From NCBI GenBank assembly GCA_016210565.1, contig JACQUA010000334.1:1-64000 (forward strand): 64,000 bases of DNA. Direction: 5' to 3'. The stretch comes from Chloroflexota bacterium. GTDB taxonomy: Bacteria; Chloroflexota; Dehalococcoidia; JACQUA01. The position numbers were made by a program, and so were the translations under genes. Every line of letters starts with the position of its first letter. Position 1 is the first letter of the stretch. The notes beneath the pieces were generated by a model that saw only the letters and a program-made list of their open reading frames with translations, was not told where the DNA came from and did no database searches. This document shows positions 37,991 to 62,169 of the stretch, piece after piece.

Positions 37991-38045
37991 GGGTTCAAAC
38001 TGGAGGTCGCCATGAAAGTACAATCATTGTCAGAAAACGAGATCT

Positions 38046-38072: not shown

Positions 38073-38092
38073 GTCTTAGTACGGAGATCGCC

Positions 38093-46021: not shown

Positions 46022-46073
46022 AGCTGTTTCGTGCTCTCTATTCCACAAGGCACAAGGTCGGATTAACGCATTT

Positions 46074-46214: not shown

Positions 46215-47369
46215 CTATTTCAGAAGGGGCGCGAAGATTTCTTTGGCAATCTCCATCAGCTCTCCCTGCCGCAGGATCTCGGCCTCGTTCTGGACTACGA
46301 TTGGCTCGCCCGGCAGGGGAGTAAGACCTTGATATCCATCGGGAAGAGGGACATCCACCCTCGCGCTGGGCCGGAAGACCCCTCTGGCGAACACGGTCTG
46401 TCCTTCTTTGGTCAGAAGCCAGTTTACGAATACTTTGGCGGCATTGGGGTGAGGCAATTGCCCGCTGGGCACCCCGACGCAGCTACCGCTGGCTGTGATT
46501 CTCCCTCCTTCTTTTATGCGCACAAATGCCACCGGAGCGCCCGCGTTCTTGAATTCCAGCAGGGCCGACTGATTAGGAGCCACGCTTACTGGATACTTGC
46601 CCCGTGCCAGCCACTCCGCCTGCAGGCGCAGGTCTCTGCTCAGTACCGGTTCCTGCCTTACGAACTGGCGCAGGTAATCTTTGGTCTTGTCCAGGCCCCA
46701 GAGCGTGGTCATGAACGAGACCCACGCGTTCCCCGAGCCAGCCAGGGTTGGGTCACTCATGACGATCTTCCCCTTCCATTTCGGGTCTAACAGGTCAGAG
46801 TAAGACTGTATTTCTCCCTCCTTAACAAGCTCGGTATGGCGACCCACGTAGGTGCTAAACTCAGCGCTGAAGGGGATAACCAGCTTTCCCTGGTCCATAA
46901 ATAGGACGCCACCCATCCAATTCTTGGGGTCCTTTACCTCTGGCAGCATGAGCATGGGTTCGATGGGCGCTGGTATCCCCGTGCCTTTCATGTCCACAAG
47001 TTCGGCGATGGCGCCGAGCCCGATAACATCCGTCAGGTACAAGCCCGCCCGGCGCTCCGTTACCAGTTTTGTGGTGGCCTCAGGAGTTTTGGCGACCACG
47101 GTGAACTCTACGTCTATGCCAAACTTTTCCTTGAGAGCTCCTATGACCGCCGCCCGCGCGTCAGGCGCCCACTGGGTGATGATGCTGACTTTTCCTTCCT
47201 TTCTGGCTTCCGCCACCGTTTTGTCCCATTCGACCTCCCAACCCTGTTTGGGGGCATTGACCTCCGTAGCAGCCGCTTCCGGCGCTTTGGGAGGGACCCC
47301 GCCTGGTTGGGGGCCGCAGGCGGCCAGAATAGACGCCAGCAATACGATGGTGAGGTATGACCTTCTCAT
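46215..47369 (-). CDS. Lipoprotein extracellular solute-binding protein (SBP 7)
   Basis: A 384-residue SBP lipoprotein of the same subfamily as SBP 9 and SBP 10 (shared ends SARVDVPLPDGYQGLTPLPG). ATG 47369 has AGGAG upstream and starts one base after the PrpD 1 stop, so it is translationally tied to that enzyme. The lipobox is ILAAC, Cys18. Blocks: LLDPKWKGKIVMSDPTLAGSG, WLARGKYPVSVAPNQ, VNWLLTKEGQTVF. A longer frame to 47450 only overlaps the PrpD gene. The tight link suggests that the ligand is the PrpD substrate or a precursor; this is inference. Confidence 0.86.
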   Translation of the reverse strand: MRRSYLTIVLLASILAACGPQPGGVPPKAPEAAATEVNAPKQGWEVEWDKTVAEARKEGKVSIITQWAPDARAAVIGALKEKFGIDVEFTVVAKTPEATTKLVTERRAGLYLTDVIGLGAIAELVDMKGTGIPAPIEPMLMLPEVKDPKNWMGGVLFMDQGKLVIPFSAEFSTYVGRHTELVKEGEIQSYSDLLDPKWKGKIVMSDPTLAGSGNAWVSFMTTLWGLDKTKDYLRQFVRQEPVLSRDLRLQAEWLARGKYPVSVAPNQSALLEFKNAGAPVAFVRIKEGGRITASGSCVGVPSGQLPHPNAAKVFVNWLLTKEGQTVFARGVFRPSARVDVPLPDGYQGLTPLPGEPIVVQNEAEILRQGELMEIAKEIFAPLLK

Positions 47370-47370
47370 T

Positions 47371-48804
47371 TTATCGCTCCTGATACTTCTCTTGCCCCTT
47401 CGAAAGGCCGTCTGTGGCGGCCATGAGGGCTGCCAAACATGAGACGTCATTCGTCTCTTCCAGCCGCCGCAAGATGTCCAGCATCTGGTCGCACCTCTGC
47501 TTGGGCAGCCGGGGCGCGACCACCTTCGTGAACTTCATTTCTATCTCCTGCGCGGTGAAGGGATTCTCCGGTGACCCCTTCACCGCGCCATTATGGGTCC
47601 GGCTGAACTCCCTGCCGTCCCTGGTCCTCACCGTAAGTATCGCGGGCCACGTTCCCGGGAAGAACTTGTCCAGCTCCGGTTCGGCCACCACATCGATACG
47701 CTTGAACAGGTCGATGTGCCGGGGGTCTTTCAAATTAGCCTCCGTCTTGTAGGCTCGTGTGAAGGAAATTCCCTCCTCACCGTGATACGCGGTGAAAGCC
47801 AGCACGTAGCGTGAGCTCTTGCTGGCGGCGCCCGTGGCATCGCCCGAGGGGTAACCTGGCGAACCAACCAGAGATACCACCGCACTGGGCAGCCGGAACG
47901 TCATGCGCTCTATGTCCTCACCACGCACCTGGTGTCTGTGAAGTATGTCCAGCAGCACTTCGATGCCCGGGATAGAATACATTCCGACGCCAAACCGCCT
48001 CAACGTGGTCTGCGTCACCTCATAGGCCTCTCCCAGGCCTTTCGTCAGCTTTTCCGGTTCCGGTTTTTCCGAATGAGCCCTCAAAAAACCCCGGGGGTCT
48101 TCGAATATCGCGCTGATGCCGATGACCCCGATCTGCGCCAGCAAGGCTGCGAGCACCCCGCTCTGCGCCGCTCTGCCAAGCTGGGCCCGATCACTATGGG
48201 GACTTTTCGGAAATTGTGGCCAGGGGGGAGCGCCGGCCCCCTGCACCGCAGCAATGCTTATGGCCTGGGCCAACTCGTCCCGCCCCAGTCCGAGAAGCTT
48301 GCCGGCAGCCACGGCGCAGCCGATGGGAGCGCAAAGAGAGGTAGGATGAAAGCCCCGGTTGTAGACCTGGCTCGCGCCCAGCGCCAGCCCGACCCGGGCC
48401 ATGATTTCAGCGCCGGCGACCGTTGCCAGAATGAGCTCTTTGCCGCTGGCATGCTCCCGATCAGCTACGGCCACGGTGGCTGGAACCAAACTGCAGGGTA
48501 GGTGAAGAGCGGCGCGGTGAAAGCCGTCAAACCCGCCAAAGCTGATGGCGGTGTTGGAGAAGGCAGCGTTAAGGCAGGGCACTTTGCAGCCCTCGGTCAC
48601 CAGGCTGGACTCTTCCACCCCTCCCATTTCCCTGAACAACTCGGGAATCTTGAGATGTTCCACCTCCGGATTCATAGTGCCAGCGACAGCCGTCAGACCG
48701 ATCTGGTCCATGAGGAGAAGCCTGGTGAACTCCACGACATCACGCGGCAGATCCTCATATCTGAGAGCGAAACAGAACTCAGCCAGTTCGTCACGGATCG
48801 TCAT
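47371..48804 (-). CDS. MmgE/PrpD-family protein (PrpD 1)
   Basis: A 477-residue member of the MmgE/PrpD family, which includes 2-methylcitrate dehydratase and cis-aconitate decarboxylase. It starts MTIRDELAEFCFALRYEDLP, shares EGCKVPCLNAAFSNTAISFG and the block GFHPTSLCAPIGCAVAAGKLLGLG, and ends in a PrpD-type C-domain (GTWPAILTVRTRDGREFS). Which dehydration or decarboxylation it performs is not clear. It is the third of three tandem paralogues and is followed one base later by SBP 7. It has about ten more C-terminal residues than the other copies (GLSKGQEKYQER). Confidence 0.85.
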   Translation of the reverse strand: MTIRDELAEFCFALRYEDLPRDVVEFTRLLLMDQIGLTAVAGTMNPEVEHLKIPELFREMGGVEESSLVTEGCKVPCLNAAFSNTAISFGGFDGFHRAALHLPCSLVPATVAVADREHASGKELILATVAGAEIMARVGLALGASQVYNRGFHPTSLCAPIGCAVAAGKLLGLGRDELAQAISIAAVQGAGAPPWPQFPKSPHSDRAQLGRAAQSGVLAALLAQIGVIGISAIFEDPRGFLRAHSEKPEPEKLTKGLGEAYEVTQTTLRRFGVGMYSIPGIEVLLDILHRHQVRGEDIERMTFRLPSAVVSLVGSPGYPSGDATGAASKSSRYVLAFTAYHGEEGISFTRAYKTEANLKDPRHIDLFKRIDVVAEPELDKFFPGTWPAILTVRTRDGREFSRTHNGAVKGSPENPFTAQEIEMKFTKVVAPRLPKQRCDQMLDILRRLEETNDVSCLAALMAATDGLSKGQEKYQER

Positions 48805-48869
48805 TCTTTGCCTTCCGTTACCTGCGCCTAACGCGCTAACTGTCTATACATGGTCCGTCATTCGTCGTT

Positions 48870-50279
48870 TCAATATCTGGCGGCCATAAGCACCGCCAGC
48901 TCGGAGACATCGTCCACCTCTTCCAAGCGCCGCTGCATATTCAACATCCTTTTCCAGCTCTCCTCCGGCAACACCCTCGCCACCACCCTGTTAAACTTGG
49001 TTTCCATCTCCTCTTGGGTGAAAGGATTCTCAGGGGACCCTTTTACCGCGCCATTGTGAAACTGCACAAACTCCCTGCCATCCCTGGTCCTCACCGTGAG
49101 AATGCAGGGCCAGGTCCCCGGGAAAAATCTGTCCAGCTCCGGCCCCGGTACCACGTCAATCCGCTTGAATAGCTCCATGTGCCGCGGGTCTTTAAGGTTC
49201 GCCTCGGTCTTATATTCGAGGCTCAGGGAAATCCCTTCTTCACCTTTGTAGGCAGTGAAGGCCAGGACATACCGCGTGCTCCGGCTGGCCGCCCCGGAGG
49301 CGTCACCGGAGGGATAACCGGGGGAACCGACCAGGGGCACCACCGCCGTGGGGAGTTTGCACGTCATTCCCTGGATGTCCCCGGCGCTGATTTGGTGCTT
49401 CTGGAGTATGCCCAGAAGCGCCTCCACGGCGGGAATGATGTAGATTCCCACACCAAACCTCCTCACTGTGGTCTGCTTAACTTCATACTCTTCCCCCAGC
49501 CCCCGGGTCAGTTTTGCCGGGTCAGGATTCGCCGAGTGCGCTCTCAAGAATCCCCGCGGGTCTTCGAAGATGGCGCTAATGCCGACCACTCCCCTCTGCG
49601 CCAGCAAGGCCGCCAGCACCCCGCTCTGCGCCCCTCTCCCAACCTGGATACTGTGCGTGTGCGGGTTCCTCGGAAACTCTACCCAGGGAGGCGCGCCCGC
49701 CCCTTGCACCGCAGCAATGCTTATGGCCTCACCCAGCGCCACCCGTCCCAGCCCTAGAAGCTTGCCGGCGGCCACGGCGCATCCAATAGGGGCGCACAGG
49801 GCGGTGGGATGAAAACCCCTGTTGTACACATCGCTTGCCCCCAGCGCCGCCCCCACCCTGGTCATAACCTCAGCACCGGCCACCGTCGCCAGAATGAGAT
49901 CTTTACCGCTGGCACACTCCCGCTCAGCCATGGCGATGGTGGCAGGAATAAGACTGCAGGGCAGATGTATGGCGGCCCGGTGCAGCCCCTCGAACCCGCC
50001 CCAGCTAATCACGGTGTTGGAAAAAGCGGCGTTTACACAGGGCACTTTGCAGCCCTCGGTCGCCAGGCTCGACTCTTCCCTCCCGCCAATTCGCCTGATG
50101 AACCCGGGGATACCGATGCCAGCGACCAGTTCCTCAACATCGGGGTTGATCCTGCTGCCGACGGCGGTTAGCCCGATTTGATCGGAAATGAGAAGCCTGG
50201 TGAATTCGACCACGTCGCGCGGCAAGTCGTCAAATGTCAGAGCAGCGCCGAAATCGGCCAATTGGTCACGGATTGCCAT
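48870..50279 (-). CDS. MmgE/PrpD-family protein (PrpD 2)
   Basis: A 469-residue MmgE/PrpD protein, start MAIRDQLADFGAALTFDDLP after GGGG-rich ribosome site AAAGGGGCCAGC. Landmarks as in the other copies: EGCKVPCVNAAFSNTVISWG, GFHPTALCAPIGCAVAAGKLLGLG, FEDPRGFLRAHSAN, GTWPCILTVRTRDGREFV. A two-residue insertion (EELVAGIGIP) near residue 48 groups it with PrpD 3 and the later copies and separates it from PrpD 1. It lies 65 bases upstream of PrpD 1 and 32 bases downstream of PrpD 3, as one transcript. Confidence 0.86.
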   Translation of the reverse strand: MAIRDQLADFGAALTFDDLPRDVVEFTRLLISDQIGLTAVGSRINPDVEELVAGIGIPGFIRRIGGREESSLATEGCKVPCVNAAFSNTVISWGGFEGLHRAAIHLPCSLIPATIAMAERECASGKDLILATVAGAEVMTRVGAALGASDVYNRGFHPTALCAPIGCAVAAGKLLGLGRVALGEAISIAAVQGAGAPPWVEFPRNPHTHSIQVGRGAQSGVLAALLAQRGVVGISAIFEDPRGFLRAHSANPDPAKLTRGLGEEYEVKQTTVRRFGVGIYIIPAVEALLGILQKHQISAGDIQGMTCKLPTAVVPLVGSPGYPSGDASGAASRSTRYVLAFTAYKGEEGISLSLEYKTEANLKDPRHMELFKRIDVVPGPELDRFFPGTWPCILTVRTRDGREFVQFHNGAVKGSPENPFTQEEMETKFNRVVARVLPEESWKRMLNMQRRLEEVDDVSELAVLMAARY

Positions 50280-50311
50280 GCTGGCCCCTTTCTACCTTCC
50301 ACCGTCTCGTT

Positions 50312-51718
50312 TCACAATTTGGCCGCCATGAGAGCCGCCAGTTCTGACACGTCATCAACCTGTTCCAGGCGGCGCATAATTCCGAGCATCTGATCGCGCC
50401 TCTGCGGTGACAGGCGGGGAGCTATCAGCTTGTTGAACTTGGTTTCCATCTCCGGTTCGGTCAAAGGGTTCTCGGGGGACCCTTTGGTCGCACCGTTGTG
50501 AAACTGGGTCATTTCCCTGCCGTCTTTGGTCCTCACCGTGAGTATGCCGGGCCAGCTTCCGGGAAAGAACCTGTCCAGCTCAGGCGCTGCTACGACCTCA
50601 ACGCGTTTGAACAGCTCCATGTATCGAGGGTCTTTCAAATTGGCCTCCGACTTATACTCCAGGCTGTAGGAGATCCCCTCCTCACCATTATAGGCGGTGA
50701 ACGCCAGGACGTAGCGTGAGCTTTTACTGGCGGCGCCGACCGAATGGCCGGAGGGGTAGACCAGCGAACCAACCAGGGGCGCCACTGCCGTGGGGAGTTG
50801 CAATGTCATGGCGTCTATGTCCGCAGCCCCGATCAGGTGCTTCTGGAGTATTTCCAAAAGCGCTTCTATGCCCGGGACCATGTATATTCCCACACCAAAC
50901 CTGGCGCAAGTGGTCTGCTTGATTTCGTATGCTTTTCCCAGGCCCTCGGTCAACTTGGCCGGGTCGGGATCCGCCGAGTGGGCCCTCAAGAATCCCCGGG
51001 GGTCTTCGAATATGGCGCTGATGCCGATCACGCCCATCTGCGCCAGCAAGGCGGACAGCACCCCGCTCTGAGCCGCCCTGCCGGACTGGATTCGATGGGT
51101 TGGAGGGCTCTTGGGGAACTGGACCCAGGGGGGAGCCCCCGCCCCCTGAACAGCGGCAATACTTATCGCTTCGGCCAGTTCGTCACGTCCCAGACCGAGA
51201 AGCTTGCCCGCGGCCACGGCGCAGCCGATGGGAACACAGAGCGACGTGGGATGAAAACCGCGGTTGTAGACATTGTTGGCGCCCAGCGCCAGCCCTACCC
51301 TGGTCATGACCTCGGCGCCGGCCACCGTTGCCAGAATGAGGTCTTTGCCGCTGGCACGCTGTCGCTCGGCCACAGCGATGGCGGCTGGAATGAAGCAGGA
51401 AAAATGTATGGCGGCGCGGTGAAACCCGTCAAACATTCCAAAGCTGATCACCGTGTTGGAAAAAGCGGCGTTTATGCAGGGGACCTTGCAGCCCTCCGTC
51501 ACCAGGCTCGATTCCTCCTTGCCGCCCATTTCCCTGATGAATCTGGGTATGCCAATGACATCCACCAGCTCGGCTACGTCGGGGTTGAGCCTGACACCGA
51601 CCGAGGTCAGGCCGATCTGGTCCCTGAGGAGAAGTGTGGTGAACTTCACCACATCAGGGGGTAAATCCTCGAACTTGAGATCGGAACTGAAGTCAGCCAA
51701 CCGGTCACGAATGGCCAT
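50312..51718 (-). CDS. MmgE/PrpD-family protein (PrpD 3)
   Basis: A 468-residue MmgE/PrpD protein starting MAIRDRLADFSSDLKFEDLP after GGAGAGCAAATAG. Landmarks: EGCKVPCINAAFSNTVISFG, GFHPTSLCVPIGCAVAAGKL, FEDPRGFLRAHSADPDPAK, GSWPGILTVRTKDGREMT. It is the first of the three tandem copies and follows SBP 8 by 27 bases. Divergence among the copies is spread over the sequence, and the core helical segments are almost the same; older duplication with retained function is the likely history. Confidence 0.86.
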   Translation of the reverse strand: MAIRDRLADFSSDLKFEDLPPDVVKFTTLLLRDQIGLTSVGVRLNPDVAELVDVIGIPRFIREMGGKEESSLVTEGCKVPCINAAFSNTVISFGMFDGFHRAAIHFSCFIPAAIAVAERQRASGKDLILATVAGAEVMTRVGLALGANNVYNRGFHPTSLCVPIGCAVAAGKLLGLGRDELAEAISIAAVQGAGAPPWVQFPKSPPTHRIQSGRAAQSGVLSALLAQMGVIGISAIFEDPRGFLRAHSADPDPAKLTEGLGKAYEIKQTTCARFGVGIYMVPGIEALLEILQKHLIGAADIDAMTLQLPTAVAPLVGSLVYPSGHSVGAASKSSRYVLAFTAYNGEEGISYSLEYKSEANLKDPRYMELFKRVEVVAAPELDRFFPGSWPGILTVRTKDGREMTQFHNGATKGSPENPLTEPEMETKFNKLIAPRLSPQRRDQMLGIMRRLEQVDDVSELAALMAAKL

Positions 51719-51745
51719 CTATTTGCTCTCCGTTCTCGGATTTCT

Positions 51746-52924
51746 TCACCTTATATTGAAGATCTCTCTGGCAGTAGGCGCCGTTTTGGCCTTCGTCATA
51801 ATTCCCTCTTCATCCTCCTGCAAATAGCGTTTTGAAGGATCCGGCACCATGAAGGGTTCGAACCCTTCGGTAGGTACATCGATTCTGGTGCTTGGGGCCA
51901 TTTGGTTCTTGCTCCAGTGAGTCTGGCCCTCTCTCGAAAGGATCCAGTTGACGAACGTGGCCGCCGCTTTTGGATGGGGGGCGTTGCGCATCAGTTGTAT
52001 GTGACCCGAACCTCCCGACAACCATCCTCCCTCCTTCATGTAAGGCAACAATGTGACAGGCGCTCCCGCTTTTCTAAACTCTGTTACCGGGTCGGCGTTG
52101 GGGCCCACAAGGACAGCGTATTTCCCACGGGCCAGCCATTCGGCCTGAAGGCGCGAATCCCTCTGAATGGCAGGCTCCTGTTTGGCCAGTCCCCGCATAA
52201 AGTCCAGTCCCATCATTTTCATGCCGACATTGTAAAAGAAGTCCTGACCATTGCCGCTAACGGTCGGGTCGCTCATGATTATCTTGCCTTTCAACTCGGG
52301 ACTAAGGAGGTCGGCAAAACTGCCCATCTTCTCGGCGGTTATGAGGCTGGTGTTTATTGCGAGCGGAGGCATCACCTGGACCATTACTCTGATGCCGTAT
52401 TTGCCCGATTCGAAATAGGGAAGCTTCCCGCCCAGCCAGAATTTGGGTTCCTTTACTTCAGGCAGTATCAAGGCGTTTTCAATGGGGTCAAAGACGCCTG
52501 CCGGTATCAGGACGCTGACTACGCTTGTCGCGCCACCAACGTAGATGTCAGGTATGTAGATGCCTGCCCGCCTTTCGGAGAATATCTTCTCGGACAGCTC
52601 ATTACCTTTCGCAACTACTATATCGACATCGATCCCATACTTCTCTTTCATATTCTTGACCACGAAATCTCTTATGTTCGCCGCGCCGACGCTGACATAC
52701 ATGACCACCTGACCTTCCCTCTTTGCCTCCTGGACAACTTTATCCCATTTTTCTTCCCAGCCTTCCCTGAGAGGCTTCGCCGCTACGGGCGCGACCGGTT
52801 CCTGTGCAACGGGAGAGTAAAGTGGTTCCTGCGGTCTGGCGCACGAGATCAGCGTTAGAACAAGAACAAATTGAAGAATTAACAGAGCCCGCAAACCATG
52901 ACCAATCGAGAGATTTCTCACCAT
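51746..52924 (-). CDS. Lipoprotein extracellular solute-binding protein (SBP 8)
   Basis: A 392-residue SBP lipoprotein, the most divergent in the right-hand group. The longer signal peptide reaches the lipobox LTLISC with Cys28. Blocks: LLSPELKGKIIMSDPTVSGNG, WLARGKYAVLVGPNADPV, VNWILSREGQTHW; the C-terminus is KTAPTAREIFNIR. AGGAGG ten bases upstream supports the ATG. It heads the SBP 8, PrpD 3, PrpD 2, PrpD 1, SBP 7 group, so the array is bracketed by two binding proteins. Confidence 0.86.
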   Translation of the reverse strand: MVRNLSIGHGLRALLILQFVLVLTLISCARPQEPLYSPVAQEPVAPVAAKPLREGWEEKWDKVVQEAKREGQVVMYVSVGAANIRDFVVKNMKEKYGIDVDIVVAKGNELSEKIFSERRAGIYIPDIYVGGATSVVSVLIPAGVFDPIENALILPEVKEPKFWLGGKLPYFESGKYGIRVMVQVMPPLAINTSLITAEKMGSFADLLSPELKGKIIMSDPTVSGNGQDFFYNVGMKMMGLDFMRGLAKQEPAIQRDSRLQAEWLARGKYAVLVGPNADPVTEFRKAGAPVTLLPYMKEGGWLSGGSGHIQLMRNAPHPKAAATFVNWILSREGQTHWSKNQMAPSTRIDVPTEGFEPFMVPDPSKRYLQEDEEGIMTKAKTAPTAREIFNIR

Positions 52925-52974
52925 TCTTGTTGTCCTCCTGCTTTCTTGCTCTAAACTTTCCTTGTCATTCTGAG

Positions 52975-53051
52975 AGCTTGTGAAGAAATTGGTTAGTCCC
53001 TATCTAGCGACTTGTCTCGCTCATATCTGGGTTTTCAACTAATTCACAAAC
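52975..53051. mobile_element. 77-base MITE-like insertion with target-site duplication
   Basis: The insert is flanked by TCTGAG on both sides (52969-52974 and 53052-53057). Removing it with one duplicate restores the known dispersed repeat GTCATTCTGAGCG. Its ends are imperfect inverted repeats: AGCTTGTGAAGAAATTGGTT on the left and, read backwards, GTTTGTGAATTAGTT on the right. It has no coding capacity, so it is a non-autonomous insertion. Confidence 0.55.
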
Positions 53052-53136
53052 TCTGAGCGTAGTCGAAGAATCCTTGGCCTGGTTCTGCGACTAAGGGGTG
53101 GGTTACTCCAGCCAACTCAGTGTTCACCCCGCACTG

Positions 53137-53432
53137 ATACAAACGCAATAAATAATGACGAATAGTCTCACACAAAGGCACAAAGGGCACAAAGGGATCC
53201 TTGGGAGGGGATGTGGCGAGACAACACCATACTTGTTTCAGCGTCTCCGTATTCTTTGTGTCTCTGTGATACTACCTGTCAAGATTTGCGTGTTTCGCGA
53301 GAATTATTGAGCTTTGACCGCCTGAGGAACATCTCATTTTTGGTTGCGGCCATCAGGCTGCGCTATGTCTTTGTGTGAAACCGTATCCCCCGTAATATTA
53401 CCTCGATGCGACATTTATTACTGCGTTTGTAT
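53137..53432. mobile_element. MITE-like repeat element, copy 2 (interrupted)
   Basis: About 296 bases with terminal inverted repeats ATACAAACGCAATAAATAAT (from 53137) and, on the other strand from 53432, ATACAAACGCAGTAATAAAT. It shares AATGACGAATAGTCTCACAC and the CACAAAG hairpin arms (53168-53269) with copy 1 at 43858-44061. A stretch of about 95 bases (53271-53366) absent from copy 1 separates the hairpin from a second TTTGTGTGAAACC word, which looks like a later insertion. Confidence 0.6.
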
Positions 53433-53445
53433 TAATTGCAATGTT

Positions 53446-54462
53446 TTATGCCGGCTTCAACCCTTTCCTAGCCAGTTCCTCCTCAAAAAGTCTCCTGACG
53501 GCAGGGTCCTCCTCGTCGCGGTCCAGCATATCGCCTCCTTTCGTCACGCCCAGCGTCGATCGATAGATCTTTCCCGTGCCCCGGATGGCTGACTTCAAAG
53601 CTACCTGTTTGACCACCTGCGTTCCTGTATTGCAATGAGTATGCCACCAGCCTTCGGGAGGACAATATATTGTCCCCTTTTGAAAGTCCGCTTTGATTCT
53701 CTTGTCCCAGTCCTGCCACATGAGGGCGTAGCCCGTGCCCTCGACGATAATGAGATGAGCGCCGGCGTGATGCCGGTGCGGCTTTTTGTAAGTGCCCACT
53801 TCAACCTGCGCCAGGTGGGCGCGGGTGGTGTTGCCTGAAAGCGCCAACTGCAGGACCTCATAGCCACTCCCATATTCCGCCGTTGAAAGCAGGAATGGCT
53901 TGCGAACGTCGGGCACAAAACCGCCTGCCCAGGTAAGGCTGTCGACCATCTTGCCGGCGCCGCCGAAGTAGTCCGGCCCGCCCCGATAACGGTCTTCAAA
54001 ATCAAAATCGGTGCTGAAGATAAAGTCAGGGTTCCGGTATATGTTGAAGATCAGGGGGGCGTTGGTGACCGCCAGGTACTTTGCCGGCTGATCGCCGGTG
54101 TTGGTGTGCTGGTGCCAGATATTGAGGGGAGGAGAAAACAGGGCATGCTCCTGCCAGGCAACTGTCTGCGGCGCTCCGACCCGGCTCCAGAATCTCGTCT
54201 CGCCTTGACCCTGGAGGATATATATCCTTTCCTCGAAGAGATGCTTCTCCGGGTTGAGAGAGCGGCCCGGCGGTATCTCGCAGATACAGGCGCTGCCAAA
54301 CCCCTCACCGCCTTCCAGAATCACGAAGGCAGCCAGGCCCCCGTTCCGCATCCAGGGCTTCAACGGTACCTCATAGGCATTTGTCACAAAGTGGCCGCGG
54401 ATTATCGGTACGCCTTCTGCCTGCGCCCACAGCTCGAAAGGAGAGTCGAGTCTATCTGCCAT
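53446..54462 (-). CDS. Bicupin protein, gentisate-dioxygenase-like
   Basis: A 338-residue protein with two cupin barrels. The first (about 50-130) has HLFEERIYILQGQG and NIWHQHTNTGDQPAKYL; the second (about 205-290) has KPHRHHAGAHLIIVEGTGYA and EGWWHTHCNTG. Both contain the His-rich metal motifs of cupins, and the overall plan resembles gentisate 1,2-dioxygenase and related bicupin dioxygenases, but the protein could be an isomerase or an oxygen-independent enzyme in this anaerobic context. ATG 54462 is preferred; an upstream TTG would add ten residues. It lies between SBP 9 (upstream) and the MITE-rich gap. Confidence 0.75.
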   Translation of the reverse strand: MADRLDSPFELWAQAEGVPIIRGHFVTNAYEVPLKPWMRNGGLAAFVILEGGEGFGSACICEIPPGRSLNPEKHLFEERIYILQGQGETRFWSRVGAPQTVAWQEHALFSPPLNIWHQHTNTGDQPAKYLAVTNAPLIFNIYRNPDFIFSTDFDFEDRYRGGPDYFGGAGKMVDSLTWAGGFVPDVRKPFLLSTAEYGSGYEVLQLALSGNTTRAHLAQVEVGTYKKPHRHHAGAHLIIVEGTGYALMWQDWDKRIKADFQKGTIYCPPEGWWHTHCNTGTQVVKQVALKSAIRGTGKIYRSTLGVTKGGDMLDRDEEDPAVRRLFEEELARKGLKPA

Positions 54463-54556
54463 GTTTGCTGCCTGCTTCCTCTCTAATGGCATAGCGGTTC
54501 AGGCCGGATTGAACTTGCGTCCCGGGAGGCAGGTTCAAGATCAAGAGTGGCCTATT

Positions 54557-55711
54557 TCAGCGGGGCGTGAATATTTCCCTGGCAACACCCAGCAGTTGAG
54601 ACTTCAACATGACCGATTCTTCGTCCTCGCTTACGACCGTCTCCCCTGGCAGGGGAAGAAGGCCTTGATAACCCTTTGGAGGAGGGACATCTAACCTCGC
54701 GCTGGGTCGCAGGAACGTCTCGCTGAACAGGGCCTGCCCTTCCCTGGTTAGAAGCCAGTTAATGAACACTCTTGCAGCGTTGGGGTGGGGCAGTTGCCCA
54801 CTGGGCAAAGCGAGACAGCCACCACCGGCAGTGAGGTTACCTCCCTCTTTTACCCGCGCCAGGGTTACGGGTGCACCGAGGCTCTGCAGCTCAAGCCAAC
54901 CTGACGGGTAAGGTCCCACCGCTACGGAGTACTTTCCCTTCGCCACGGATTCCGCAATGAGGCGTAAGTCCCTGCTCAGTACCGGGTCCTGCTTTGCAAA
55001 CTGGCGCAGGTAGTCCTTCGTCTTGTCCAGCCCCCAGATGCTTGTCATGAACGAGATCCAGGAGTTGCCTGAGCCCGGACTGGTGGGATCGCGCATGATG
55101 ATCTTACCCTTCCATTTTGGATTCAAGAGGTCATGGTAGGATTCTATCTCCCCTTGCTTAACGAGCTCCGTATTGTGACCCAGGTAGGAGTTAAAACTGG
55201 CGCTGAAGGCTATCAATAGCTTTTGCCGATCCAGGAAGGGAGTGCCCCCCGACCAGACCCTGGGGTCCTTTACCTCAGGCAAGATGAGCATGGGTTCAAT
55301 GGGGGCTAACAGACCTGCCGGTTTCATGTCGATAAGAACACTGGAAGCACCTTGAGAGATAACATCTACCAGGTGTAGACCAGCCCGGCGTTGGTTTACC
55401 ATTTTCACCGTCATCTGGCCTCCAGGCTCTGAAGTCAACTCCAGGTCTATGCCGAACTTTTCCCTGAACAGCTTTACCATTGCCGCCTGCGTTTCAGGTG
55501 GCCATTCGGCATAGGCGCTGACTTTGCCTTCCTTTCTGGCCTCCTGTACCAAATTATCCCATTCTGCCTCCCAGCCTTCCTTGGTCGCTTTCACCGCCGG
55601 AGCAGCTCCTTCCGGGGCTTTGGCCGGCGTCTCCGTTTGTGGGGCGCAAGCGGCCAGAACAGAAGCCAGCAAGACGACGGTCACGCTCAATATCGGACGT
55701 AGAGTTCTCAT
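54557..55711 (-). CDS. Lipoprotein extracellular solute-binding protein (SBP 9)
   Basis: A 384-residue SBP lipoprotein, ATG 55711 with AGGAGG upstream; a longer frame to 55738 lacks a site. The lipobox is VLAAC with Cys22. Blocks: LLNPKWKGKIIMRDPTSPGSG, SVAKGKYSVAVGPYPSG, INWLLTREGQALF, and the subfamily end SARLDVPPPKGYQGLLPLPG. It is closest to SBP 10, with which it shares GGGCLALPSGQLPHPNAA and the same bait of ligand-loop residues, so the two are recent duplicates around the isochorismatase gene. Confidence 0.86.
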   Translation of the reverse strand: MRTLRPILSVTVVLLASVLAACAPQTETPAKAPEGAAPAVKATKEGWEAEWDNLVQEARKEGKVSAYAEWPPETQAAMVKLFREKFGIDLELTSEPGGQMTVKMVNQRRAGLHLVDVISQGASSVLIDMKPAGLLAPIEPMLILPEVKDPRVWSGGTPFLDRQKLLIAFSASFNSYLGHNTELVKQGEIESYHDLLNPKWKGKIIMRDPTSPGSGNSWISFMTSIWGLDKTKDYLRQFAKQDPVLSRDLRLIAESVAKGKYSVAVGPYPSGWLELQSLGAPVTLARVKEGGNLTAGGGCLALPSGQLPHPNAARVFINWLLTREGQALFSETFLRPSARLDVPPPKGYQGLLPLPGETVVSEDEESVMLKSQLLGVAREIFTPR

Positions 55712-55765
55712 TCTGCTTAGACCTCCTGGTACGAACATCCCGGTTGCCTCACCTTGCCGGACTGT

Positions 55766-56458
55766 TCATCGCTCAGCGGAGCGGTTCGACCGCCATATAT
55801 CGAGCACTTCCCTGGAATCCGCGATGTCCATAGAAGATGACATGATAAGCAAAGCCGCGTCGTGGCACGTCGCCTTATGGCTGGCAATACAATCTCGCAG
55901 GAGGACCGGATAGTAGTCAAGAAGCTGGGCATGCTTGGCTGTGGCCATCACGCACCCCTGGGTCACCACGCCAGCAATCGTGACAGTTTGTATGCCGTTG
56001 CTGCGCAACATCATGTCAAGATCGGTCCCCATAAAGGCGCTGGACCGGTGTTTGCGGATAACAATCTCATCCGGCAATGGGGTTAGTTCTTCCACTATCT
56101 GCCAGCCCCAGCTATTTTCAATACAACGCCTGGTCAATCCCTTGAAGGGCTTGTTGCTTTCATAACTCATGTGCAACAACTGCATTCGCAATGAGGCAGG
56201 CGAGTCAGACAAGGAATTGGCATACGAAGTCATTTGTACATGAATCCGAAGAACGCCGTGGCGCCGGGCCGCTTCAAGAACCTGTTTGACCTGCGGTACC
56301 ATTTGGCGAGCGGCGGATGTTTCGCTTCCCTGCTTATCAGAGAAGCCCCCGGGCATGACGTAGTCATTTTGGAGGTCGATGAGCAAGAGGGCATTGTGCT
56401 CTGGGTCCACCAATTCCTGGAGGGTGGTCAGAACCTCCTTGCCATCAATAATCAGCAT
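55766..56458 (-). CDS. Isochorismatase-family cysteine hydrolase
   Basis: A 230-residue hydrolase of the isochorismatase/nicotinamidase fold. The catalytic triad is visible: Asp28 in ALLLIDLQNDY, Lys136 in VIRKHRSSAF and Cys169 in VVTQGCVMAT with its cis-peptide-like preceding residues. Members hydrolyse amides, carbamates or vinyl ethers (N-carbamoylsarcosine, biuret, nicotinamide, isochorismate). The substrate is not determined by sequence. It is placed between two near-identical SBPs, 54 bases before SBP 9 and 188 after SBP 10, which suggests action on an imported nitrogenous compound. Confidence 0.86.
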   Translation of the reverse strand: MLIIDGKEVLTTLQELVDPEHNALLLIDLQNDYVMPGGFSDKQGSETSAARQMVPQVKQVLEAARRHGVLRIHVQMTSYANSLSDSPASLRMQLLHMSYESNKPFKGLTRRCIENSWGWQIVEELTPLPDEIVIRKHRSSAFMGTDLDMMLRSNGIQTVTIAGVVTQGCVMATAKHAQLLDYYPVLLRDCIASHKATCHDAALLIMSSSMDIADSREVLDIWRSNRSAER

Positions 56459-56547
56459 TAGCTACCTCCCTCGATAAGCTATTTGTTAAACACGACGTTG
56501 AACTGACTGCGCCTCAGACGCCGGGAAATTCCGCAGCGACACGCCTT

Positions 56548-56575
56548 GTCCCGACATGTCGGGATCGAACCCCTG
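56548..56575. repeat. GTCCCGACATGTCGGGA hairpin
   Basis: Perfect palindrome GTCCCGACATGTCGGGAT in the gap between SBP 10 and the isochorismatase gene; same family as 42377-42394. Confidence 0.6.
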
Positions 56576-56646
56576 GAGTCAGCGCGCCACGACAGGGTTT
56601 CGACACCCGCAAGGGCGTCGCTACAGGGCTTCCCAGCAGCGGCGGC

Positions 56647-57804
56647 CTATTTCATCAGCGGAGCGAATATTTCCTTGGCGACCTGGAACAATTGAGTGTC
56701 CAAGAGGACTCCTTCCTCGGTCGAGGGTACTACTTTCTCGCCTGGGAGGGGAAGCAGGCCGGGATAGTCTTTGGGAGGAGGGACATCCAGTCTGGCGCTG
56801 GGTCGCAAGTACACCTCGCTAAACAGGGCCTGCCCTTCTTTGGTTAGAAGCCAGTTAATGAACACTTTGGCTGCGTTGGGGTGTGGCAGTTGTCCACTGG
56901 GCAAAGAAAGGCAGCCTCCACCCGCGGTGACGCTAAGGCCATCTTTTACCCGCCCCAGGGTTACGGGTGCACCAAGCTGCTCCAACTCAAGCCAACCTGG
57001 CGGGTAAGGTCCCACCGCTAAGGAGTACTTTCCCTTGGCCACCGACTCCGCGATGAGACGCAAGTCCCGGCTCAGTACCGGTTCCTGTTTGACGAACTGG
57101 CGCAGGTAATCCTTGGTCTTATCCAATCCCCAGAGAGTTGTCAGGAATCCGACCCAGGCGTTGCCCGAGCCGGGACCGGTGGGGTCCCGCATCACGATCT
57201 TACCCTTCCATTTTGGGTCCAGGAGGTCCTGGTACGAACCTATTTCCCCTTTCTTAACAAGCTCGGTATTATAACCCAGGTACGAGTTAAAACTGGCGCT
57301 GAAGGGTATCACCAGCTTATCCCGGTCCAGAAAGGGATTGCCACCGGTCCAGGCTTTGGCGTCCGTAACCTCGGGTAGAATGAGCATTGGTTCCACGGAG
57401 GCCACTATGCCGGCGGGTTTCATGTCGCTGAGAATATAGGAAGCGCCCTGGGAAATGACATCTACCAGGTACAGACCGGCCCGGCGTTCACTCACAATTT
57501 TCACAGTGTGTTCGCTTCCTCCCCCTGGAGTGAACTCTATCTCCAGGCCGAACTTCTCTTTGACCGCCTTTCGGATGGCCGTCTGCGTTTCAGGCGGCCA
57601 GTTGGCATAGGCGCTGATCTTGCCCTCTTTTTTTGCTTCCTGTACCGCTTTGTCCCATTCCGCTTCCCACCCCTGTTTGGTCGCCTTCACCGGAGTGGTG
57701 ATTCCTTCCGGCGCTCTGGCCGGCGTCCCCGTTTGTGGCGGGGTGCAAGCGGCCAGCATAGCAGCCAGCAAGACGATTGCGATTAACACTTGTGAACGTC
57801 TCAT
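56647..57804 (-). CDS. Lipoprotein extracellular solute-binding protein (SBP 10)
   Basis: A 385-residue SBP lipoprotein. Lipobox MLAAC, Cys20; ATG 57804 follows GGAGG. Blocks: LLDPKWKGKIVMRDPTGPGSG, SVAKGKYSLAVGPYPPG, INWLLTKEGQALF, and the end SARLDVPPPKDYPGLLPLPG. Nearly parallel to SBP 9 throughout. It lies 67 bases after PrpD 4 on the same strand, repeating the PrpD-to-SBP order seen at PrpD 1/SBP 7. Ligand unknown; an organic anion is plausible from context. Confidence 0.86.
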   Translation of the reverse strand: MRRSQVLIAIVLLAAMLAACTPPQTGTPARAPEGITTPVKATKQGWEAEWDKAVQEAKKEGKISAYANWPPETQTAIRKAVKEKFGLEIEFTPGGGSEHTVKIVSERRAGLYLVDVISQGASYILSDMKPAGIVASVEPMLILPEVTDAKAWTGGNPFLDRDKLVIPFSASFNSYLGYNTELVKKGEIGSYQDLLDPKWKGKIVMRDPTGPGSGNAWVGFLTTLWGLDKTKDYLRQFVKQEPVLSRDLRLIAESVAKGKYSLAVGPYPPGWLELEQLGAPVTLGRVKDGLSVTAGGGCLSLPSGQLPHPNAAKVFINWLLTKEGQALFSEVYLRPSARLDVPPPKDYPGLLPLPGEKVVPSTEEGVLLDTQLFQVAKEIFAPLMK

Positions 57805-57871
57805 TCTATGTTATGCCTCCTGGTCCGGCATAGCCGGAAATTGATTAACCCATTATCCAGTACTGAGGAGC

Positions 57872-59275
57872 TCACCTGGCAGCCATGAGCACGGCCAGGT
57901 CTGAAACATCATCCAGCTCTTCCAGCCTGTGCAGCATTTCGAGCATCCGGTCAGCCCTATGTTTCGGCAGCACGGGTGCTATCACCTTACTGAACTTGTC
58001 TTCCATATCCTGCGCAGTGAGGGGGTTCTCAGGGGATCCCTTTAACGCCCCATTGTGGAAGTGGGTGAACTCCCTACCGTCTTTTGTCGTCAAAACGACT
58101 ATGCCCGGCCATGTCCCCGGGAACAACTTGTCCAGTTCCGGTTCCGGCACCACATCGGTGCGATTGAACAGGTCCACGTGTCGCGGGTCTGTCAGGTTAG
58201 CCTCGCTTTTGTAGTCCAGGCTGAATGCAATCCCGCTTTCTCCTTTGTAAGCGGTAAACGCCATTATGTAGCGTGCGCTTCTATTGGTAGAGCCGGAGGC
58301 ATCCACGGACGGATAGACGGATGAACCAACCACAGGCGCCACCGAAGTCGGGAGTTTCAGCGTCATCCGGTCGATGTCGTCACCCTGAATGTGGTGCTTC
58401 TGAAGTATTTCCGCGAGCGCCTCTATGCCGGGCCGAATATATATTCCCACGTTGAACCTGCCGCAGGTGGTCTGTTTCACTTCCCACACCGTTCCCAGGC
58501 CTCCGGTTGCCTTTGCCGGGTCAGGATTGGCCGAATGGGCTCGCAGGAACCCCCGCGGGTCTTCGAATATGGCGCTGATGCCTATGACGCCCATCTGCGC
58601 CAGCAGCGCCGCCAGGACCCCGCTTTGCGATGCCCTGCCGGACTGGATCCGGTGGGTGAAGGGGCTTTTGGGGAACTGTACCCAGGGAGGAGCCCCTGAG
58701 CCTTGAACGGCGGCAATGCTTATGGCCTGGGCCAGCGCGTCCTGACCCAGTCCGAGAAGCTTCCCGGCTGCTACGGCGCAGCCGATGGGAGCGCAGAGCG
58801 CAGTGGGATGAAAGCCCCGGCTGTAAACATTGTCGGCTCCCAGGGCGTATCCTACCCTGGCCATGACCTCACAACCCGCGACGGTAGCTAAGATCAGGTC
58901 CTTTCCGCCGGCGTGCTGTCGCTCGGCAACAGCGAGGGTGGCCGGGATCAGGCAGGAAAGATGTATCGCGGCGCGGTGGAAACTGTCAAACGAGCCGAAG
59001 CTAAGCACCGTGTTGGAGAAAGCGGCATTGATGCAGGGTACCCGGCAGCCCTGGGTCACCAGGCTGGACTCCTCCTTGCCGCCCATTTCCTTGAAGAATC
59101 CGGGTATCCCGATGGCGTCTACCTGCAACTTGCGGTCGGGATCGATCTTGGCGGCGATAGCGGTCATGCCAATCTGGTCTCGCACGAGCATAGAAGTGAA
59201 TTCGACCACATCTCGTGGCAAATCGTCGAATTTCAGACCGGCTGCGAACTCAGCCAGTTGGTCCCGTACCGTCAT
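57872..59275 (-). CDS. MmgE/PrpD-family protein (PrpD 4)
   Basis: A 467-residue MmgE/PrpD protein starting MTVRDQLAEFAAGLKFDDLP after AAGGAGACAAAG. Landmarks: QGCRVPCINAAFSNTVLSFG, GFHPTALCAPIGCAVAAGKLLGLG, FEDPRGFLRAHSANPDPAK, GTWPGIVVLTTKDGREFT. The replacement of TVRTRDGRE by VLTTKDGRE and of EGCKVPC by QGCRVPC makes it the most divergent copy in these blocks. It follows PrpD 5 by 109 bases and precedes SBP 10. Confidence 0.86.
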   Translation of the reverse strand: MTVRDQLAEFAAGLKFDDLPRDVVEFTSMLVRDQIGMTAIAAKIDPDRKLQVDAIGIPGFFKEMGGKEESSLVTQGCRVPCINAAFSNTVLSFGSFDSFHRAAIHLSCLIPATLAVAERQHAGGKDLILATVAGCEVMARVGYALGADNVYSRGFHPTALCAPIGCAVAAGKLLGLGQDALAQAISIAAVQGSGAPPWVQFPKSPFTHRIQSGRASQSGVLAALLAQMGVIGISAIFEDPRGFLRAHSANPDPAKATGGLGTVWEVKQTTCGRFNVGIYIRPGIEALAEILQKHHIQGDDIDRMTLKLPTSVAPVVGSSVYPSVDASGSTNRSARYIMAFTAYKGESGIAFSLDYKSEANLTDPRHVDLFNRTDVVPEPELDKLFPGTWPGIVVLTTKDGREFTHFHNGALKGSPENPLTAQDMEDKFSKVIAPVLPKHRADRMLEMLHRLEELDDVSDLAVLMAAR

Positions 59276-59384
59276 TTCTTTGTCTCCTTGAACTCAGTGT
59301 CAGAAAATCCTCAAGAATTGGAATCCCAAACGGGTGCGATGGCCTCTAACACGAACACAATAGTAAACCCCGCGTGTATCATCG

Positions 59385-60788
59385 TCATCCGGCAGCCATC
59401 AGCGCCGCTAAATCTGAGACGTCGTTCAACTCTTCCAACCGGCGCATGGTTTTCAACATCTGATCACTCCTCTGTTCGGGCAGGTGGGGCGCCAGGATCT
59501 TGCTCAACCTGGCTTCCATCTCGTGTTCAGTGAACGGATGTTCAGGAGATCCCTTTACCGAGCCGTGGTGGAACTCGCGGAACTCCCTACCATCTCTGGT
59601 CCTCACGGTAAGTATACATGGCCAGGTTCCCGGAAACAACTTATCCAGGTCGGGTTCGGCCACCACGTCGATCAACTTGAAAAGTTCGACGTGACGCGGG
59701 TCTTTCAAATTGGCCTCTGATTTGTACTCCAGGCTGAATGATATTCCGTGCTCTCCCTTGTGGGCGGTGAATGCCAGCACGTACCGTGAGCTTCTATTCG
59801 TGGACCCCGTGGCATCCGCTGCGGGATAGTCCGGTGAACCAACCAGCGGCGCCACCGCCGTTGGCAGTTTGAATGTCATCCCAGCTATGTCTTCAGCGCG
59901 TATCCCGCTGTTCTGAAGTATGCCGAGAAGCGCTTCGATGCCCGGGATGACATACGTCCCCACACTGAACCTCTTCATAGTGGTCTGCTTCACTTCGAAC
60001 ACCTTTCCCAGGCCTTCCGTCAGCTCAGCCGGGTCAGGGTTTGCCGAGTGGGCTTTCAAGAATCCCCGGGGGTCTTCGAATATGGCGCTGATGCCCACCA
60101 CACCCATTTGCGCCAGCAGGGCCGCCAGCACGCCGCTCTGGGACGATCTGCCAACCTGGATACTATGGCTATGGGGATTCCTGGGGAATTCTACCCACGG
60201 AGGGGCGCCCGCCCCTTGAACTGCGGCAATGCTTATCGCTTCGGCCAGTTCGTCCCGTCCCAGTCCCAGAAGCTTGCCTGCGGCCACGGCGCAGCCAATG
60301 GGGGCGCAAATAGCGGTCGGATGAAAGCCTGCGTTGTAGACATTGCTGGCGCCCAGCGCCAACCCTACCCTCGCCATGACCTCAGCCCCTGCAACCGTCG
60401 CCAGAATCAGGTCCTTGCCGCTGGCTCGCTGTCTCTCGGCGACGGCGATGGTAGCCGGGATCAAGGATGACATATGTATCGTGGTACGGTGCATGCTATC
60501 GAACACGCCCCAGCTAATCACCGTGTTGGAGAAAGCGGCGTTTATGCAAGGTACTCTGCTGCCCTCTGATACCAGACTCGATTCTTCCTTCCCGCCCAGC
60601 TCTCTGAAATACCTTGGTACGCCGATGTTGTCCACCAGAAACCTGGGGTCCGGATCGATCCGGGTAGCAGCGGCGGTCACGCCGATTTGATTCTTGATGA
60701 GAGCCGAGGTGAACTCGACGACGTCACGGGGTAAATCTTCAAATTCGAGAGTTGCACCGAACTCTGCCAATTGATCACGGATCGCCAT
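59385..60788 (-). CDS. MmgE/PrpD-family protein (PrpD 5)
   Basis: A 467-residue MmgE/PrpD protein starting MAIRDQLAEFGATLEFEDLP, with GGAGACTGAAGA upstream. Landmarks: EGSRVPCINAAFSNTVISWG (Ser instead of Cys in the EGCK position), GFHPTAICAPIGCAVAAGKLLGLG, FEDPRGFLKAHSANPDPAE, GTWPCILTVRTRDGREFR. It is 31 bases downstream of a family III CoA-transferase gene, which ties the PrpD group to acyl-CoA chemistry. Confidence 0.86.
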   Translation of the reverse strand: MAIRDQLAEFGATLEFEDLPRDVVEFTSALIKNQIGVTAAATRIDPDPRFLVDNIGVPRYFRELGGKEESSLVSEGSRVPCINAAFSNTVISWGVFDSMHRTTIHMSSLIPATIAVAERQRASGKDLILATVAGAEVMARVGLALGASNVYNAGFHPTAICAPIGCAVAAGKLLGLGRDELAEAISIAAVQGAGAPPWVEFPRNPHSHSIQVGRSSQSGVLAALLAQMGVVGISAIFEDPRGFLKAHSANPDPAELTEGLGKVFEVKQTTMKRFSVGTYVIPGIEALLGILQNSGIRAEDIAGMTFKLPTAVAPLVGSPDYPAADATGSTNRSSRYVLAFTAHKGEHGISFSLEYKSEANLKDPRHVELFKLIDVVAEPDLDKLFPGTWPCILTVRTRDGREFREFHHGSVKGSPEHPFTEHEMEARLSKILAPHLPEQRSDQMLKTMRRLEELNDVSDLAALMAAG

Positions 60789-60819: not shown

Positions 60820-62058
60820 TCAGCCGATTACGCCATCGACGATCAACCTATCAATCTCTTCTTCCGGCATGTGCAATATCTCTTTGAAGACATAATCGTT
60901 GTGTTCCCCGAGGAGCGGGGCGTGCCTCCACTGAAGGGCCGGTACATTCGACATCTTGAAGGCCCAGTCCTCAAGGGTCATTTCGCCCGCCTCGGGATGG
61001 ACCACCTTGACCCAGTGACCCCGCTCCCTTAACTGGGGATCTCGCCTTAGCAGGTCCTCCACGCTTTCCACAACCCCCGCGGCCACTCCCGCCCCCTGCA
61101 GCAATTCCATCACCTCCCAGGGGCTTCTCTGCACGGTCCATTCACTGATGATTTGGTCCAGGGCTTCAGCATTGGTTTTCCTATCCGCGAGCGTGGCAAA
61201 CCGGCGGTCGCCGGCCAGGTCAGCCCGGCCGATAACCCGGCAAAACGCCCTCCACTCCTCCGGAGTGAAAACCGCTATGGCGCACCATTGGTCCTGTCCC
61301 TGGCAGCGGTAGACTCCGTGCGGAGCGGCGTCATCCGACCGGTTGCCCTGGGGCTGGCGCCGCCTTTTGTTGACAAGGTAATCGAAAATGAACGTGCCGG
61401 TGAAATTGAGGGTGGACTCATATTGAGAAAGCTCGATGAACTGTCCCCTCCCCGTCCTCGCCCGCCAGTAGAGCGCCGACAGGAGGGCCACCATACCGTG
61501 AAAGGGCTGGCTACTGCTGTCGGGATGGGAGTACGGACTGGCCCGTATGGGTGACCTCCCTGTGGAGGTGGTCATATGGTCAAAACCGCACATCGCCAGC
61601 ATATTCCAGCTCAAAGTCCTGAAATCCCTGTACGGCCCATCCATGCCGAAAGCGGGCATGGCAAGCATGATGATGTCGGGCTTGACCTTCACGAGTTCCT
61701 CATAGGTTAGCCCGAATCGCTTCAGGGCCGTCGGGACCAGATTGGTTATGACTACCTGGCTCAGACTCACCAACCGCCTGGCAAGCTCCCGCCCCTCCCG
61801 ATGATTGAGATTGAGCGTGACGGAAAGCTTGTTGGTATTGAACTTGTTGAAGGTATGTCCCAGGTTCAGGCTGGTTAGACTCGACGCTCCCGGCCCTGGG
61901 TGCCGGCCGGCCACGCCCTTCCGGATGGATTCTTCGTTTTCGACGCAGACCACCTGGGCGCCATAGTCGGCCAGAATCTTGCCCACCATGGGTCCGGCCA
62001 CGGCGGTAGCGAATTCGATTACTCTAATCCCCGTCAGGGGAAGCTGATTATTGGGCAT
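60820..62058 (-). CDS. Family III CoA-transferase (CaiB/BaiF type), first copy
   Basis: A 412-residue CoA-transferase of the CaiB/BaiF/formyl-CoA transferase family, which moves CoA between acyl groups through an aspartyl-CoA anhydride. Landmarks: LPLTGIRVIEFATAVAGPMVGKILADYGAQVVCVE at the N-terminus (two adjacent blocks), LNHREGRELARRLV, MLAMPAFGMDGPYRD, and PLLGEHNDYVFKEIL at the end. I start it at ATG 62058, since the upstream extension to 62133 has no family resemblance. The acyl substrate is unknown. It is followed 31 bases later by PrpD 5. Confidence 0.87.
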   Translation of the reverse strand: MPNNQLPLTGIRVIEFATAVAGPMVGKILADYGAQVVCVENEESIRKGVAGRHPGPGASSLTSLNLGHTFNKFNTNKLSVTLNLNHREGRELARRLVSLSQVVITNLVPTALKRFGLTYEELVKVKPDIIMLAMPAFGMDGPYRDFRTLSWNMLAMCGFDHMTTSTGRSPIRASPYSHPDSSSQPFHGMVALLSALYWRARTGRGQFIELSQYESTLNFTGTFIFDYLVNKRRRQPQGNRSDDAAPHGVYRCQGQDQWCAIAVFTPEEWRAFCRVIGRADLAGDRRFATLADRKTNAEALDQIISEWTVQRSPWEVMELLQGAGVAAGVVESVEDLLRRDPQLRERGHWVKVVHPEAGEMTLEDWAFKMSNVPALQWRHAPLLGEHNDYVFKEILHMPEEEIDRLIVDGVIG

Positions 62059-62169
62059 TGTATTGTCTTTGCAGCTTTGTTCTCTGTCTGTCAGCGCGGT
62101 GGGTCGGCACAGCCACCCCCCTTTCCACCCCACCCCTCTGTGCTTGACCCACCCTGCGTGGCTCCAGCT

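Follow-up and report, generated by a model that had tools for sequence, protein, structure and literature searches.

The question raised by this locus is why genes for MmgE/PrpD-family enzymes and genes for solute-binding proteins (SBPs) stand together repeatedly, and whether their products handle the same compounds. The window, meaning the whole stretch of 64,000 nucleotides that was analysed, belongs to a single MAG of the Dehalococcoidia on which the whole analysis rests (6.53 Mb, 419 contigs, completeness 94%, contamination 6.4%), and carries, between positions 46215 and 60788 and all on one strand, five MmgE/PrpD genes of full length with four SBP genes flanking them (Table 1). Our preferred reading, to which we assign a probability of roughly 0.6, is that these genes make up two catabolic cassettes out of a set that is specific to the lineage and arose by duplication; each combines receptor and enzyme, and the SBPs either draw on a common permease or serve as sensors. 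That the cassettes exist and recur on several contigs is shown, as are purifying selection on them and an evolutionary link between their PrpD and SBP genes.

Table 1. Genes and intergenic features of the two modules and their flanks (positions in the window).
Feature	Position	Strand	Evidence
SBP, distant clade, downstream of AFOR	42691..43824	-	Pfam; tree
Aldehyde:ferredoxin oxidoreductase (AFOR) family gene, downstream of SBP 46215	44180..46048	-	AFOR_N E 1e-66, AFOR_C E 4e-82
Lipoprotein SBP (ABC type, FbpA/AfuA/MctA superfamily), downstream of PrpD1	46215..47369	-	SBP_bac_8 E 2e-16; lipobox
PrpD1, MmgE/PrpD family, divergent clade A	47371..48804	-	PF03972 E 1e-51, PF19305 E 8e-22
PrpD2, clade A	48870..50279	-	Pfam, identity, tree, residue alignment
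PrpD3, clade A	50312..51718	-	Pfam, identity, tree, residue alignment
SBP, second of module 1, other SBP clade, 27 bp upstream of PrpD3	51746..52924	-	Pfam; tree; lipobox LISC
Intergenic gap between modules, 521 bp, interspersed repeats	52925..53445	.	blastn vs fetched loci of the genome
Cupin-domain protein, last gene of module 2	53446..54492	-	Cupin_2 E 1e-12, Cupin_1
SBP, 74% identical to SBP 56647	54557..55738	-	Pfam; identity
Isochorismatase-fold hydrolase	55766..56458	-	PF00857 E 1e-40
SBP downstream of PrpD4	56647..57804	-	SBP_bac_8 E 1e-17; lipobox MLAAC
PrpD4, clade A	57872..59275	-	Pfam, identity, tree, residue alignment
PrpD5, clade A	59385..60788	-	Pfam, identity, tree, residue alignment
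CoA-transferase family III, 31 bp upstream of PrpD5	60820..62133	-	PF02515 E 4e-96
CoA-transferase family III, second	62170..63534	-	PF02515 E 2e-90

Along the minus strand two family III CoA-transferase genes are followed by PrpD5, PrpD4, SBP 56647 (SBPs being named by their first position), the isochorismatase-fold hydrolase, SBP 54557 and the cupin gene, and beyond the intergenic gap by SBP 51746, PrpD3, PrpD2, PrpD1, SBP 46215, AFOR and SBP 42691. Gene calls were made with a simple codon-usage caller, and both PrpD domains were matched in all five window PrpDs, which are 467-477 aa long (PF03972, E 4e-46 to 1e-51; PF19305, E 1e-16 to 2e-23), with scores exceeding the curated cut-off for both domains in each. 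An earlier note on this DNA had PrpD3-2-1 lead into an SBP across a gap of one base, and this was upheld, as a signal peptide and the lipobox MRRSYLTIVLLASILAAC fix the start of SBP 46215 at 47369; PrpD5-4 likewise run into SBP 56647 as described there, with a gap of 67 bp from an ATG at 57804. Overlooked at the time were SBP 54557, within module 2, and SBP 51746, whose position upstream of PrpD3 gives module 1 an SBP at both ends. Lipoboxes were recognised in SBPs 46215, 51746 and 56647. No permease or ATPase gene is encoded with the window SBPs in the 42-64 kb region, and Rfam gave no RNA family over the same region. A gene for an alpha-2-macroglobulin-like protein of 1463 aa adjoins the SBP region (37973-42364), and the same contig bears a cobalamin biosynthesis cluster at 5314-16905 with cbiC/X, cbiM, cbiD, several TP_methylases and cbiG.

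The adjacency of PrpD and SBP genes is more than chance. An immediate same-strand SBP neighbour was found for 36 of 79 PrpDs, as compared to 19 +/- 3 when gene labels were permuted inside each locus with gene content kept, and none of 1000 such shuffles reached 36; the shuffling was done within loci because most of the fetched regions had been chosen for PrpD or SBP, which biases the background of SBP density. The SBP lies downstream of the PrpD in 23 cases and upstream in 18, 43 of the 79 PrpDs are without an adjacent SBP, and 13 of the 14 PrpDs of the clade to which the window copies belong (clade A, see below) adjoin an SBP or lie in a run that includes one. Adjacency of PrpD to CapA was also raised (15 against 7.8), CapA being the top neighbour other than SBP and PrpD (21 of 112 neighbours for SBPs and 15 of 50 for PrpDs), followed among SBP neighbours by the UbiD, cupin, MtmB, AFOR and isochorismatase families. 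As the same SBP superfamily adjoins many unrelated enzymes, the SBP is not specific to PrpD. Elsewhere the pairing, for which the earlier note had proposed a survey, turned out to be almost absent: in a sample of PrpD neighbourhoods from other genomes an SBP adjoined none of 27 PrpDs in class relative G027 and one of four in G009, a frequency not above chance, and none in G037, G024, G004, G005, G008 and others among the class members sampled. Outside this genome the sample thus goes largely against the earlier note, which had named a lack of adjacency elsewhere as evidence against its reading. The SBP regions of G001, G023 and G058 with their 1.5-kb flanks showed other neighbours and neither PrpD nor CapA, no SBP adjacency was seen in six annotated plasmid contexts of PrpD relatives (from an incomplete gene table), and no literature pairing PrpD with SBPs or with SAR202 was found.

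Independent PrpD and SBP histories, which would have spoken against the earlier note, were not found; the two histories are linked, at least among recent paralogues. The window PrpDs, 69-75% identical among themselves, all fall within the 14-member clade A, which is confined to this lineage and sits on a long branch with a support of 100, and they are not exclusive mutual relatives, PrpD4 grouping with PrpDs of loci L070 and L076. SBPs 46215, 54557 and 56647 fall into one supported clade together with SBPs adjoining clade-A PrpDs in L076 and L078, and the SBP of L074 is close to it; duplication of modules, as the earlier note suspected, is thus borne out by a single PrpD clade and a shared SBP clade that recur on other contigs. 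SBP 51746 falls in a different clade, and four clade-A PrpDs of L070 and L075 also have SBPs from other clades, so that exchange of partners is possible. In a set of 40 distinct PrpD-SBP pairs, 76 cross-contig comparisons joined close PrpDs, and in 30 of these the SBPs were close too, as compared to 3.4 expected from permutation (p = 2e-4, the lowest value that 5000 permutations allow), and this result was stable at nine of nine threshold settings. The recent-paralogue test was adopted after an all-pairs rank correlation of PrpD and SBP distances had proved weak (rho 0.08, reached by 49 of 500 shuffles), and as the signal is strong only in the former, the claim of linkage is limited to recent duplications. 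Among the window PrpDs dN/dS (NG86) lies at about 0.13-0.19 and among the window SBPs at about 0.24-0.28, and such low ratios at a dS of about 0.7-1.4 mark the pairs as old and constrained. A contig scan of genomes for close relatives of the window PrpDs returned only four loci, at 29-39% identity; among 400 Chloroflexota genomes sampled no relative of clade A exceeded 34%, the best match of PrpD3 outside its own genome being at 33-34%.

The two modules belong to a much larger expansion. The presence of five paralogues in 14 kb, described in the earlier note as unusual, would be so for most genomes, but not for this one, which holds 78 PrpD genes. With our own SBP profile at least 173 related lipoprotein SBPs were found in the 1.55 Mb fetched, and a first look had given 320 SBP_bac_8 candidates, of which 150 were scored and all 150 matched. 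Permeases are scarce, with 14 BPD_transp_1 stretches in the whole genome, and SBPs therefore outnumber membrane components many-fold, almost all of them being orphans without a permease of their own. The sole complete FbpABC-like set seen, at G000:C65 (G000 being this genome), has the one permease pair seen beside an SBP of this class, and that SBP is very distant from the other SBPs in the tree. The window SBPs match SBP_bac_8/11/6/1 and not TctC (PF03401), for which the genome has 15 stretches, with four for TctA; genes for TctC-type (TTT) SBPs occur near clade-A PrpDs at L074 4638-5822 and L075 7929-9062. CapA/PGA_cap (PF09587) is represented by 101 stretches, frequently in tandem (e.g. C38, C196, C113, C36; L046 9532-15599, L061), the next highest number among 60 class relatives being 8, and the CapA genes inspected lack a signal peptide and therefore resemble cytosolic enzymes and not capsule proteins. 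Other class members have at least 39 PrpDs (G027) or abundant SBPs of the same kind (61 in G058, 53 in G023, 23 in G010 and 16 in G001, the last without any PrpD).

Elsewhere in the same genome, MtmB-like genes (monomethylamine methyltransferase) that are full-length at about 465 aa and have no in-frame stop, possibly non-pyrrolysine MtmB homologues, are flanked by a corrinoid-protein gene and SBPs (L112 1631-3715 and 5131-14198; L099 15938-17335). Reductive dehalogenase-like genes over the family cut-off were found at C393:4506-5375, which is 4-8 kb from two PrpDs, at C147:10231-10740, and at C179:19471-20043, where the gene adjoins an SBP.

The AlphaFold model of SBP 46215 (pLDDT 93.3) has a bilobal fold for which Foldseek returned FutA, IbpS, the citrate-binding MctA and AfuA as nearest, a fold class whose ligands range from Fe3+ and metal-citrate to sugar phosphates; identity to solved SBPs is about 14-21%, and no ligand can thus be transferred from them. 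Entry 6lkg is among the nearest solved sequences, and we take it to be HptA of S. aureus, a glucose-6-phosphate-sensing orphan SBP. It is plausible that SBP and PrpD enzyme share a ligand, as the earlier note suggested.

Linked divergence that is visible only among recent paralogues could also be produced by block duplication without functional coupling, whereby PrpD and SBP were copied together as DNA segments, perhaps via repeat recombination, with adjacency a matter of hitchhiking and the SBP serving other substrates. Possible agents of such duplication are at hand, as the gap between the modules is filled with interspersed repeats whose copies of about 115, 137 and 75 bp lie elsewhere in the genome (by blastn they match 25 of the fetched loci including the window, the 115-bp element mostly at 94-96% identity), and this account is further favoured by the two modules lying side by side, by the restriction of linkage to recent paralogues and by the many other enzymes that SBPs adjoin. 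Adjacency has, however, survived the considerable sequence change reflected in the dS of the window paralogues, and linkage extends across different contigs and, judging by the tree, more than one PrpD clade; we consider this explanation unlikely. Far more doubtful is an assembly artefact, in which the paralogue count of a chimeric 6.5-Mb MAG would reflect mixed strains or organisms. The number of contigs, the level of contamination and a same-family relative of just 2.2 Mb would be in keeping with a chimera, but a composition test gave it no support, the fetched contigs with and without PrpD/SBP overlapping in GC, GC3 and tetranucleotide composition; moreover, the modules share the window contig with cobalamin genes, hsp70 and NAPRT, the paralogues differ by 25-30%, well past strain variation, and the same SBP family is present in the same-family genome G001 (480 bits).

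The SBPs might instead be sensors or substrate-concentrating lipoproteins, the ligand-bound SBP signalling to a partner in the membrane by which the enzymes encoded nearby are regulated. The imbalance between SBPs and permease stretches and the occurrence of HptA among the nearest solved sequences agree with such a role. The operons, on the other hand, hold catabolic enzymes, as expected for uptake, and no histidine kinase or receptor family is found among the top 25 neighbour families. A sensing role has already been proposed for orphan TTT SBPs (PMC5994714), and for the SBPs of this genome we judge it to be rather improbable as the general explanation.

With respect to the enzymes, the AlphaFold model of PrpD1 (pLDDT 92.8) displays a confident MmgE/PrpD fold, the closest solved folds being cis-aconitate decarboxylase (CAD) and iminodisuccinate (IDS) epimerase (TM 0.81-0.85), with TM values of 0.71-0.85 to complete solved family members. 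A profile of the genome's PrpDs scored 322 bits against IDS epimerase, 301 against CAD and 118-145 against 2-methylcitrate dehydratases, and PrpD sensu stricto was accordingly rejected as the closest characterised relative. Known MmgE/PrpD substrates have a common 1,4-dicarboxylate core, and the residues that coordinate it are conserved family-wide (PMC12290011); by CAD numbering, H159, K207 and K272 are located at the carboxylates, and the H159Q and K272Q variants are inactive (PMC9170585). In an alignment to human CAD covering H90, D/E93, H103, H159, K207 and K272, none of the 14 clade-A PrpDs retains H90, D/E93 or K207 and six retain K272, whereas the two active-site histidines, H103 and H159, are present in every one; for 124 control PrpDs the numbers are 121 for D/E93, 123 for K272, 85 for K207, 83 for H90 and 70 for H159. 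Phenylalanine or tryptophan replaces H90, G/S/V/A and others occupy D93, and H/T/N/D/Q occupy K207, PrpD1 being without the equivalents of H90, D93, K207 and K272 altogether; at positions 208 and 273 many clade-A members have an arginine, which might compensate for the lost residues. By this sequence alignment acid-base chemistry is probable for the clade-A PrpDs and a canonical dicarboxylate substrate improbable. As the window PrpDs keep H103 and H159 but lack H90, D93, K207 and mostly K272, their substrate would not be a simple 1,4-dicarboxylate of the kind of methylcitrate, cis-aconitate or methylsuccinate, and the methylcitrate, aconitate and itaconate put forward in the earlier note look unlikely on the same residue comparison. 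With the dicarboxylate site mostly lost under continued purifying selection, the label PrpD predicts fold, not substrate. Plasmid-encoded PrpD relatives of Proteobacteria and Rubrobacter adjoin genes for CoA-transferase, MaoC, CoA-ester lyase and acyl-CoA dehydrogenase, a gene context which the CoA-transferases upstream of PrpD5 fit, and one of these relatives has TctAB genes nearby.

The cassette as we would reconstruct it joins a lipoprotein SBP (FbpA/AfuA/MctA superfamily), anchored on the outside, to cytosolic enzymes of MmgE/PrpD fold, with accessory genes for CoA-transferase III, AFOR, an isochorismatase-fold hydrolase and a cupin. The SBP would catch an anionic organic compound, which may be taken in by an FbpB-type permease that several SBPs share, such permeases being very few and the complete set at C65 the candidate; a PrpD-fold enzyme would then carry out histidine acid-base chemistry of the epimerisation, dehydration or decarboxylation type, and the product could be taken further by the CoA-transferases and AFOR. 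The organisation suggests a multiplied system to catch and convert organic acids or similar compounds. Counting against the cassette reading are the TctC-type SBPs near some clade-A PrpDs, the SBPs of other clades paired with the PrpDs of L070 and L075, the 43 PrpDs that no SBP adjoins, the many unrelated enzymes beside SBPs and the weak rank correlation over all pairs. A bolder proposal, which we advance only tentatively, is that clade A constitutes an undescribed enzyme subfamily in which the 1,4-dicarboxylate site was lost and a new reaction is catalysed. Each enzyme would have its own co-evolved orphan SBP, and one or two shared permeases would serve them all; if true, this would amount to many receptors and many enzymes behind one gate, scavenging chemically varied organic matter.

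The nearest precedents are the expansions of orphan TTT/Bug SBPs and the paralogue expansions of SAR202. Among solved SBPs, MctA (metal-citrate), AfuA (sugar-phosphate) and FutA/FbpA (Fe3+) share the fold class and are among the nearest; they are normally part of complete transporters. Among solved enzymes, CAD (6R6U, 6R6T) and IDS epimerase (2HP0) are nearest by fold (TM 0.81-0.89) and profile (301-322 bits), whereas clade A is just 21-28% identical to them and has suffered the residue losses described above. The methylsuccinate isomerase of itaconate/methylsuccinate clusters (PMC12290011) likewise places MmgE/PrpD beside CoA-transferase genes and keeps the catalytic histidine, but the window PrpDs are without the carboxylate-coordinating residues and are flanked by SBPs; as they break the published rule of family-wide dicarboxylate coordination, an annotation as 2-methylcitrate dehydratase would mislead. 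In SAR202 Chloroflexota, paralogues have expanded in the FMNO, enolase superfamily and RHD families (PMC6946804, PMC5395668), which resembles the present case in phylum, in the tens to more than 100 catabolic paralogues and in being read as a wider substrate range for resistant organic matter, and differs in the enzyme families involved; the main text of PMC6946804, searched by term, contains no mention of PrpD, MmgE or solute-binding. Rhodoplanes sp. Z2-YC6860 has 434 TctC homologues, and orphan TTT/Bug SBPs have expanded in Bordetella as well, according to the sections of PMC5994714 drawn on here, which describe, as in the present genome, massive lineage-specific growth of a single SBP family, far fewer membrane components, tandem arrays and mostly unassigned ligands, and which report no pairing of SBPs with an enzyme family. 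The SBPs of this Dehalococcoidia bacterium differ in being ABC-type lipoproteins (SBP_bac_8/FbpA superfamily) and in having as partner an expanded enzyme family, to which they are coupled and with which they diverge. New here are the ABC-type family of SBPs, the fact that it is paired with one family of enzymes, and the changes in the active site of those enzymes. With SBPs tied physically and evolutionarily to one enzyme family, the enzyme gives a handle on the ligand of the SBP and vice versa, and if transport is shared, the system would allow the idea of many receptors behind a single gate to be put to the test.
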